Below, piece by piece: positions 11,316 to 20,179 of a DNA stretch of 64,000 nucleotides (its first letter is position 1; each line of letters begins with the position of its first letter). The stretch lies in the NCBI GenBank assembly GCA_029550925.1, contig JAKPGL010000130.1, forward strand, positions 1 to 64,000. Direction: 5' to 3'. Position numbers and translations under genes: made by a program. The notes under the pieces are model-generated. The model made no database searches. It was given only the letters and a program-made list of their open reading frames with translations, and was not told where the DNA came from. This DNA comes from Planctomycetota bacterium (lineage in GTDB: Bacteria > Planctomycetota > Planctomycetia > Pirellulales > Thermoguttaceae).

Positions 11316-11366
11316 CAATGGCTCCGGTTTCAACGCCCGCCGTTCTCAAACACCGCCGCCGCCAAA

Positions 11367-11451
11367 CGGATGGGGAGGGATTCGAACCCCCGGTGGGAAA
11401 CCCCACGCCGGTTTTCAAGACCGGTGCCTTAAACCACTCGGCCACCCATCC
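11367..11451 (-). tRNA. tRNA-Ser (anticodon TGA)
   Basis: Minus strand GGATGGGTGGCCGAGTGGTTTAAGGCACCGGTCTTGAAAACCGGCGTGGGGTTTCCCACCGGGGGTTCGAATCCCTCCCCATCCG: 7-bp acceptor, D arm, CTTGAAA anticodon loop, long variable arm, T arm. Confidence 0.95.
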
Positions 11452-11471
11452 ACTAGGAGGAAATGTTACTT

Positions 11472-16457: not shown

Positions 16458-16790
16458 GAATCGAGACTCCTTCGAAGTTCCGCTCGGTGCGGGAAGAAAG
16501 CGTTTTGTATTAGTGTAACTGTTTCGTGGAGGAAAATCACCCATCGTGTGAGGAGTGGGGAAGCCGGGGCAAAGGTCGGGCGGTTTTGTGAAACTTTACC
16601 GATTAGAGAAGATTTTCGGGAGCCGGAGGGGCGGCGTTTGCCCCTACAATCGATAAACTTTTCCTAGCTTCTGTAACAGGAAAATTCTTCTCAAAAGAAG
16701 CCGTAAGTCTTTTGCAGAAAATCGGTTTGGTTCATTCAAGCCCCTTCGCCGGGAAAGCCGATACCGTAGTTGACCCCTTTATGAATCAGC

Positions 16791-16985
16791 GCGTGCCGCC
16801 CAGGCACGCTGGAAGGGTGCGTCAGGAGAACCGGATCGGCAATTTCGAGCCACGGAGCGGCTCGACGGCCCTGACGCAAGGGACGGTGTGAACGGGCGTC
16901 CGATTCTTCAGGCCCCGGAGGCCCTCAGAAGCCTATCCCACGGCTACCCAACACTCCGGTAGAAATACTGGCGGTGGGGCTTCTG
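16791..16985 (+). ncRNA. Candidate structured RNA leader upstream of the Cys-rich protein gene
   Basis: Successive stems: GCGTGCC/GGCACGC (16791-16809); TGCGTCAGG/CCTGACGCA (16818-16826/16870-16878) enclosing TCGAGCC/GGCTCGA (16845-16851/16859-16865); GGACG/CGTCC (16881-16885/16897-16901); CAGAAGC+CCCAC+CTACC pairing GGTAG+GTGGG+GCTTCTG (16926-16985). Confidence 0.5.
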
Positions 16986-17044
16986 AAGACCTGCGGGGTA
17001 AGAAGACAGGATGTCCCAGTTCTCAGTACAGGAGAGTTCGCTCA

Positions 17045-17773
17045 ATGAAAGCGAAATTGGCTGTTGGAGCGCTCCTTGTGAGCATGGCCCTGGTGAGCCA
17101 GGGGTTGGCAGGGGATCTGCTGACTGGTTTACGGGGCTTGAAAGGCGGCCCCTGCTGCGACCCTTGCGGGGCGCCGGTCAAATGTGCTGTACCAGAACCC
17201 AAGGCGTGTGAACCGGCTTGCAACGCATGTGATGTGTGCTGCAAGCCCAGACACGACCTGCTGGTCGGCCTGAAGGAACTGTTCAAGAAGAAGTGTTGTG
17301 ATCCTTGTGGGGATGCCTGCCAGGCTTGCGAACCGGTCAAGTGCGCTGTGCCGGAACCCAAGGCATGTGATCCGTGCGAACCGGCCTGCTGCGAACCTGT
17401 GCGGGAAAAAATTCTGAAAAAGCTCTTCGCCAAAAAGTGCTGCTGCGATTCCTGCGAGGCGAAGGCCTGTGAACCAAAGGCCTGCGAGAAGGCGGCTTGC
17501 GAACCCGCTTGCGATTCTTGCTGCAAGTGCCGGCCGCAACTGATCCAAAAGATGTTGCACACCTTGTTCGGCAAGAAGTGCTGCTGCCAGGTGGATCAGG
17601 GCGATGGCTGTGGGTGTGGGGCTGCCGCCCCGGCAGGTGCACCGTCGCCTGCTCCGGCCTCCAAAGCGGCCGAACCAGCGCCTTTGCCCAAGGCGCCGAA
17701 ACCGGACGCTGAGGCCCAATTAAATCCGCCTCGAAGCATCTCGCAGACCAGCCGACATATAGCGCGGTACTAA
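17045..17773 (+). CDS. Secreted Cys-rich repeat protein
   Basis: Signal peptide MKAKLAVGALLVSMALVSQGLA then four units of the form (hydrophobic helix)-KKCC(C/D)xxC followed by CxPEPKACxPxxCxxC. Confidence 0.85.
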   Translation: MKAKLAVGALLVSMALVSQGLAGDLLTGLRGLKGGPCCDPCGAPVKCAVPEPKACEPACNACDVCCKPRHDLLVGLKELFKKKCCDPCGDACQACEPVKCAVPEPKACDPCEPACCEPVREKILKKLFAKKCCCDSCEAKACEPKACEKAACEPACDSCCKCRPQLIQKMLHTLFGKKCCCQVDQGDGCGCGAAAPAGAPSPAPASKAAEPAPLPKAPKPDAEAQLNPPRSISQTSRHIARY

Positions 17774-17871: not shown

Positions 17872-17915
17872 AAAGCAGGACTGTCCTTCCCAAAGGAGAG
17901 TCCTGCTTTTTTTTT
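17872..17915 (+). terminator. Rho-independent terminator
   Basis: AAAGCAGGACT...AGTCCTGCTTT 11-bp perfect stem followed by a T run. Confidence 0.9.
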
Positions 17916-17919
17916 GGAG

Positions 17920-18129
17920 TTATTCAGCCGAGTGCAGAAGTGCCGGGAAAAAATGTCATTCCCGCGAGAGCTCTCAATCCAGGGTCCTATGAGGCGGCTA
18001 CTTCGTTATTCCTCCCAAGCAGAGGCTGCAAGAAGCCTAGATTCCCGCTAGAGCGGGAATGACATATTCGCCAGAAAAATCTCGGGTTTTGCTATGAAAA
18101 TTCCGGTACTTCTGCACTCGGCTGAATAA
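17920..18129. repeat. MITE-like element with 27-bp terminal inverted repeats
   Basis: TTATTCAGCCGAGTGCAGAAGTGCCGG (17920-17946) vs CCGGTACTTCTGCACTCGGCTGAATAA (18103-18129), one mismatch; internal TCATTCCCGCG...CGGGAATGACA inverted pair. Confidence 0.85.
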
Positions 18130-18513: not shown

Positions 18514-19470
18514 CTACTTGCCACGGATGTATTCGATAGCAAAGTAACCTCTGGTAGTTCCCGGTTTCCAATCTGTTGGGTCAAGACGTAATGCCAAGAT
18601 GTTTTGTCCATACCATTCGGGGTGGGCCCCAATTGGAATGCGGTAAGTGTGGAAATTGCCGTCGGCAATAATGTCGAAATCAACGTGTTTGGCTTCATTC
18701 CATGTGGGCGACTTTTCTGTAATCCAGTAAAACTGGGCTTTTTGGCCGATGGTAATAGCCATGCGTATTTCGATAAAGCAACAGTCCTTTCCCGAAACGG
18801 CGAATTTGTAACACACCATATAAGGATCGCCAACCATACATCCTAAGAGCCGTCCTTCTTTAATGGCGACAGCAGAGATTCCCTGCTTGGGCACCCATCC
18901 TTCCGCATCCTTTTCAAACTCAAACGCAAACACATAATTGCCCAAGCCTAATTCTTTTAGCCGCATCTTTGCAATAGATTGGTCCAGGCCGTTTATGCGG
19001 TCCAGTACACGCAAGTACCACTCAGCCGCCTCTATGCGTTTAGCTAGTCTTGCCTGCCCCTGTAACAGGATAGATTCATTCCAAAGGGCATGGCCTCTCT
19101 TGGCCGCCTCTTCCGGTGATTCCGGCATGTCCTTGGCCTCAAACTCGATCAATACGTCTAAGGCCGAAATTGCCAGCTTGCTATCCATAGCCTGCACCGC
19201 AAGTTCTTTGGCCTTCTTGGCTAGCACGTACCGATTAGCCTGGTCTTTGTCTTCGGCGGCCATACGGAGCATTTCCAGGGCCAGTTTGGTTCGCTCCTGA
19301 TTGGTTTTGGCTTTTTCCAGGTCTTTGCCGAAAACTTCCGCAAGCGCCTTTTCGGCTTTGGTTATCTCTTCCGGGGTGGGCATGGGGTGTAGGTCGCCGC
19401 CCCTACAGTAGGATACGCAAAACAAAATGGCCAGTAGCACCCCGGTTCGACAAGCCTGAAAACCGCCCAT
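18514..19470 (-). CDS. Hypothetical secreted protein
   Basis: ATG 19470 preceded by TAGGAGGAA; signal peptide GVLLAILFCVSYCRG; helical N-terminal half. Confidence 0.75.
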   Translation of the reverse strand: MGGFQACRTGVLLAILFCVSYCRGGDLHPMPTPEEITKAEKALAEVFGKDLEKAKTNQERTKLALEMLRMAAEDKDQANRYVLAKKAKELAVQAMDSKLAISALDVLIEFEAKDMPESPEEAAKRGHALWNESILLQGQARLAKRIEAAEWYLRVLDRINGLDQSIAKMRLKELGLGNYVFAFEFEKDAEGWVPKQGISAVAIKEGRLLGCMVGDPYMVCYKFAVSGKDCCFIEIRMAITIGQKAQFYWITEKSPTWNEAKHVDFDIIADGNFHTYRIPIGAHPEWYGQNILALRLDPTDWKPGTTRGYFAIEYIRGK

Positions 19471-20179
19471 GTTCGTTCCTCCTAGACAGACAAGCCAAAA
19501 CAACCCGACTTTTGCCTAAAACACCTCTAACCCCCTGTTGAGCGAGCGTTTTTTAGTGGCCCACCAAAAACTTGATCCAAACCGTCCCGTTGCGCATAGC
19601 CGCCTCCTTCTGCAAGAAAGACCTGGAAACCTGAACACAAGCGCTATTTAAGATACGCAATCCGCTCTGGGCCGTCAACACCTTGCTGCTATTGGAGTTT
19701 ACCCAGAGTTCATTTCGTGGGGATGTGCGAATTGGCCGGAATTTACGGCGATTGCCCAGGTTAGGTCGCTTTGGACCGCCCAGCTCGGATCGTACCAACC
19801 CGCTCGAGAGCTAGCACGGACGACATCCTGCCGGTAACCCGAAAGATGGGCGAATGTTAGCTTCTGCCTGTTATTTGGCGATCATCCCACACTGGGTAAA
19901 CTCCAGGGTATGCTACCTTGACTTACGCCGCCAATCCCAAATTGGAACTGCCGCCAATCCCAAATTGGAACTATTGAGCAGTGACAATCAGGTTCCCTTC
20001 TAGCACCGTCGGTCAAGACGGTATTTTGCCCGGCTTCCGACCTTTGCCTTCTCCAGCACCCGCCTTCCGCCCTTACGGAGGCTGGTCTCTGCTGCCTTTT
20101 TCCTTAGAGGTGTTCTTTCCCCGGCCAAGGTGTTACAATTTTACAAAAATCTTAGGGAGGTACCCAGAAGGATCACCCC

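Follow-up and report, generated by a model that had tools for sequence, protein, structure and literature searches.

A structured leader RNA with a putative CsrA-type hairpin upstream of a cysteine-rich secreted protein gene throughout the Pirellulales

The 64,000-nt stretch of planctomycete DNA analysed here (the window) carries, ahead of the gene for a secreted Cys-rich protein, a structured RNA that by comparative analysis is a real and new RNA family, order-wide in Pirellulales and previously uncatalogued. The leader is probably the 5′ part of the Cys-rich protein mRNA and a CsrA-responsive element for control of its translation. Comparison of homologous leaders shows a fold of three parts, P1/P2, P3 and P4, ending beside the ribosome site, in which P3 presents an invariant ANGGA loop. 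The finding adds an Rfam-absent RNA family that marks most of one bacterial order, makes post-transcriptional control in Planctomycetes directly testable, and points to regulatory coupling of a secreted Cys-rich protein with motility.

Structure of the leader RNA

Beginning at about 16770, the structured RNA extends as far as the ribosome site of the downstream Cys-rich protein gene (17030), and its elements are collected in Table 1. The leader folds with an energy of -118.4 kcal/mol (z = -3.5), a value equalled by 0 of 200 dinucleotide shuffles, and P4 alone gives z = -5.1 in the window sequence. The original prediction had described serial and nested stems between 16785 and 17045, and these are confirmed by the letters, by shuffles and by homologous leaders far beyond chance. 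Its start was placed too far downstream, as the match to the covariance model R1 (see below) covers 16770-16893. A free-standing sRNA was rejected, because the leader-ORF layout, with P4 reaching up to the ribosome site, is kept throughout.

Table 1. Features of the leader RNA, the downstream gene and its flanking signals in the window.
Feature	Position	Strand	Description
Promoter-like element TCAAG-N17-CCGATA	16736..16763	+	TCAAG 16736-16740, CCGATA 16758-16763; putative promoter
Helix P1	16775..16817	+	CCCTT 16775-16779 / AAGGG 16813-16817; encloses hairpin P2
Hairpin P2	16791..16809	+	GCGTGCC 16791-16797 / GGCACGC 16803-16809; inside P1
Long hairpin P3	16819..16877	+	GCGTCAGG/CCTGACGC (16819-16826/16870-16877), CCG/CGG, TCGAGCC/GGCTCGA (16845-16851/16859-16865)
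Apical loop of P3, ACGGAGC	16852..16858	+	GGA 16854-16856; putative CsrA/RsmA-type ANGGA site
Fold-out domain P4	16885..17027	+	Single long hairpin, variable in sequence and length, stopping just 5′ of the ribosome site
Shine-Dalgarno site AGGAG	17030..17034	+	Presumed second CsrA contact
Secreted Cys-rich protein	17045..17773	+	242 aa, 14.5% Cys; homologues follow the RNA across the order
Intrinsic terminator	17872..17918	+	Hairpin 17872-17909 (16-bp stem, one mismatch), then nine T; z = -5.1

Distribution and homologues

DNA comparison with 100 relatives revealed conserved pieces in 32, lying mostly within 16740-16893 and around the ribosome site. Alignment of 20 leaders yielded R1, a covariance model of the 5′ domain, which was used to search 397 Pirellulales genomes and matched 190 of them (E <= 0.01), as a rule with a single hit per genome and in about 20 families. 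A further 40 distant loci were fetched, together with 16 that were weak or duplicate. A homologous gene for a secreted Cys-rich protein directly follows every genuine R1 match whose contig is long enough, and the start codon is present on the contig in 71 of the 72 main-set loci. A scan with the P3 core, covering one genome per GTDB species, gave almost only planctomycete records among the matches listed. The class-wide hits in G610 and G612 (outside the order), the second hit in G084 (L261) and a pattern hit in Nitrospinae (L135) are not followed by a Cys-rich gene; they look like chance matches within coding sequence and were rejected as members. Searched against Rfam 15, the leader reached the gathering score of no family, with chance-level matches only at relaxed thresholds, in agreement with the earlier claim that it fits no known RNA family.

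Covariation of the helices

In the alignment of 72 loci, which is fitted to the structure, the P1/P2/P3 pairing is kept in 94.4% of cells and compensatory change is seen in 22 pairs. Double-sided changes in P1-P3 occupy 168 cells, compared with 38 +/- 6 in shuffles and at most 63 when the structure is slid along the alignment. Every one of the five P1 and seven P2 pairs is compensated (with pairing in 80% and 95% of cells, respectively), as are seven of the eight pairs at the base of P3, a hairpin in which 95.5-99.8% of cells are paired. An unfitted MAFFT alignment of 20 leaders contains 8 compensated pairs, versus 3.3 in shuffles.

P4 was subjected to an independent test, in which the sequence following P3 was paired either with its true partner ahead of the ribosome site or with a swapped one. 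Over 70 leaders, true partners gave -26.4 kcal/mol and swapped partners -20.5 +/- 0.4 kcal/mol. Its strands are replaced completely between families (for example GAACUGCGG/CCGCAGUUC, GUGGAUCAC/GUGAUCCAU and GGGGAC/GUCCCC), and the helix is separated by 0-11 nt from P3 on its 5′ side and, in the 70 leaders, by 0-9 nt from the GGAG of the ribosome site on its 3′ side. The L007 leader is without P4, and 11 nt join P3 directly to the ribosome site. Covariation across homologous upstream regions, the check proposed with the original prediction, is thus found in both P1-P3 and P4, above shuffles and swaps respectively, and the 72 loci lend strong support to the idea of a structured RNA leading the Cys-rich gene. 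In four leaders of family f16 (L274, L279, L284 and L287), the fold-out domain holds another shared hairpin, AGGGCGATTTCGNCGGCGACTTCGT, which may be a second conserved module.

The invariant P3 loop and the ribosome site

Only two elements among the well-occupied unpaired columns exceed 95% conservation, a UG right at the 5′ terminus and the ANGGA of the P3 loop. The loop has A in 71 and GGA in 72 of the 72 loci, while the N before and the N after GGA vary freely. A fixed A and GGA with a free N is the recognition pattern described for targets of RsmE/CsrA, whose best ligands combine short stems with a loop of 6 nt (PMC7652899). The P3 loop is mostly 7 nt on a 7-bp stem and so departs from this preferred, not obligatory, geometry. 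L068 and L069, with an extra closing pair, are the only loci with the exact hexaloop ANGGAN.

Because R1 itself favours GGA, a control set was assembled of 20 leaders located solely by way of the protein, from genomes with no R1 hit. Hairpins with an ANGGA loop (stem of at least 5 pairs) occur in 9 of these 20, compared with a shuffled mean of 0.8 (maximum 3); permuted control motifs gave 2-3. On visual inspection, about 13 of the 20 place GGA in an apical loop and a few lack anything comparable. In L272, a P3-like hairpin is recognisable, with the loop AACGAGT in place of GGA.

AGGAG (or GGAG) is located 13-15 nt before the ATG in 70 of 71 leaders. The GGA at this site is weak evidence for CsrA, because any Shine-Dalgarno sequence contains GGA. 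Bridging by a CsrA dimer has been shown for site distances of 10-63 nt (PMC4066749). The P3 loop of the window lies about 175 nt from the ribosome site in linear distance, most of it folded out by P4, and in the P4-less L007 the two sites are within the 10-63 nt range.

The cysteine-rich protein and its promoter-like element

No family in Pfam or NCBIfam matches the Cys-rich protein. Its homologues have a MKWNMxFGALVVSVGLCSQSFGFELLDRMLG-type signal peptide, a body of mostly 12-26% cysteine and a tail such as APMPPAPMADPSASxxxxRRVVxAS. A profile of the N-terminus was found in 272 of the 397 Pirellulales genomes, and the protein is therefore more widespread than the leader recognisable by R1. 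A search of viral contigs with the N-terminus did not find relatives.

Of 71 leaders, 70 carry the TCAAG/CCGATA element ahead of the RNA, 69 of them with a spacing of exactly 17. FliA is present, but a FliA origin of the element could not be shown: the FliA consensus has a shorter spacing, and the element was not found upstream of flagellin. In all relatives, the DNA some 60-100 bases 5′ of the RNA (about 16650-16735 in the window) contains conserved AAA-CYTTTGC-like blocks, e.g. GTAAACCTTTTGC and GAAAATACTTCCG; these blocks, which precede the promoter-like element, are possibly activator sites. Within the leader, a run of at least 5 T occurs in just 9 of 71 sequences, making a conserved intrinsic terminator inside it unlikely and translational control the simpler option.

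CsrA and the flagellar gene neighbourhood

CsrA is encoded in 100 of 100 relatives, in 1 to 18 copies each, with four copies in the window's own genome; a protein present everywhere is consistent with CsrA control and does not discriminate. Contig C78 of the same genome has the gene order flgK-flgL-fliW-csrA-flagellin, where fliW and csrA were named by Pfam, and flgK and flgL from their position and a flagellin-N match. In other bacteria with such a fliW-csrA neighbourhood, FliW antagonises CsrA. On C78 (L247/L248), the interval between csrA (19226-19507) and the start of flagellin (20115) contains a direct repeat of about 60 bp in three near-identical copies (GCTAACAGCGGGCGTTACGTAACTTAGGCTGTCCAGCCTGAGCCAATCGCCC).

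Proposed mechanism and alternatives

In the proposed mechanism, transcription would start near 16770 and a CsrA dimer would bind the P3 loop with high affinity. P4 would loop out the intervening RNA, allowing the second CsrA pocket to reach the Shine-Dalgarno GGA, where bound CsrA would exclude the ribosome and repress translation. Titration of CsrA, e.g. by FliW within the flagellar programme, would then permit the protein to be made. Repression and the motility link are the least certain of these steps. The CsrA reading is favoured by order-wide conservation on one gene, the covariation of P1-P4 and the ANGGA loop with its free N, to which are added the excess of ANGGA loops in protein-found leaders, the hexaloops of L068 and L069, the closeness of P4 to P3 and the ribosome site, the P4-less L007, and CsrA with its fliW-csrA-flagellin neighbourhood. 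Counted against it are the 7-nt loop, the 7-bp stem, the distance of about 175 nt that needs P4 to shorten it, the unexplained role of P1/P2 and the L272 loop lacking GGA.

Some of the same features could point to another RNA-binding protein, which would read the ANGGA hairpin and govern how well the mRNA is translated or how stable it is. Compared with the best CsrA ligands (PMC7652899), the hairpin has a longer stem and one more base in its loop, and P1/P2 and the base of P3 are structurally conserved beyond the needs of CsrA. However, the invariant A and GGA with a free N are the CsrA pattern and CsrA is universal in the relatives, leaving a different reader of the hairpin unlikely.

Lower still is the probability of a ligand-sensing RNA, in which sensing of a small molecule by P1/P2/P3 would decide whether the ribosome site is accessible. 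Such a riboswitch would suit the elaborate conserved fold at the very 5′ end. It would also suit a weak 4-bp alternative, the only one with some support, in which the 5′ UUGA may pair with the 5′ strand of P3 (80.9% of cells), but two of these four pairs fail in about one third of the sequences, and a search of the leader alignment for a conserved unpaired aptamer core returned none apart from the 5′ UG and the apical hairpin loop. Rfam likewise offers no match. The arrangement first called riboswitch-like, a competing pairing of TCTTCAG with CTGAAGA, is present in the letters (TCTTCAG at 16905-16911, one base from the position originally given) but is not conserved: it falls in the variable P4 domain and is altered already in the same-genus relative L004, which reads GGTCTTTGCCCC. 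This switch was rejected and the label is not supported, the nearly invariant unpaired letters other than the 5′ UG being instead a protein-binding signature; on present evidence, the leader is not a riboswitch. Very improbable is a passive leader whose helices merely shield an abundant mRNA from decay or insulate it, a role suited to the long, stable P3 and P4, the single fixed promoter-like element and the freedom of P4 in sequence and length, but one that leaves an invariant GGA loop unexplained while the stems change freely.

Relation to known systems

Returning to control by CsrA, the family is most likely a new variant among CsrA-bridged or CsrA-controlled leaders, as judged from sequence comparison. 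In the E. coli glgC leader, a hairpin-loop site and a Shine-Dalgarno site are bridged by one CsrA dimer (PMC7652899). Like the present leader, those of this CsrA-repressed type display A(N)GGA in a hairpin loop, followed downstream by a ribosome site that contains GGA, and occur together with CsrA. By contrast, the Pirellulales leader has a variable P4 that folds out the spacer, the extra conserved P1/P2 and a 7-nt loop on a long stem, is kept as a whole order-wide on one gene, and has CsrA as its presumed ligand.

The flagellin mRNA hag of Bacillus subtilis is under CsrA-FliW control. So too is the flagellin mRNA of Campylobacter jejuni (PMC4894983). These systems resemble the present one in the adjacency of fliW, csrA and flagellin in this genome and in the GGA-based control, here a proposed one, of an exported protein, whereas the presumed target here is an unrelated Cys-rich secreted protein encoded elsewhere in the genome, with a presumed link to FliW.

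Planctomycete cell-envelope chemistry is debated, and the Cys-rich YTV cell-wall proteins of planctomycetes (PMC8567305) are, like the protein studied here, secreted and Cys-rich; the latter matches no Pfam or NCBIfam family, and the likeness is one of description. The literature searched contained no paper joining planctomycetes, Cys-rich proteins and CsrA. It is quite possible, if still doubtful, that P4 serves as a spatial adaptor setting the CsrA hairpin beside the ribosome site, in a new order-wide class of leaders that couples production of a Cys-rich planctomycete protein of the envelope or surface to the CsrA-FliW (swarmer/sessile) programme. A fold-out helix between presumed CsrA sites, lost in L007, would amount to a natural experiment in how RNA architecture sets the distance bridged by a dimer.

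Terminator and flanking sequence

The strong terminator originally claimed at 17872-17915 is real, consisting of an inverted repeat followed by a T run; a simple consensus scanner gave no terminator at 17872-17918, probably owing to the internal mismatch. Just 3′ of it, at 17920-18129, is a 27-nt inverted repeat (TTATTCAGCCGAGTGCAGAAGTGCCGG and its complement) with copies 156 nt apart, which encloses a second inverted repeat of 16 nt, and the whole looks like a small MITE-type element. The sole tRNA gene in the window, tRNA-Ser(TGA), is located at 11366-11452 on the minus strand.
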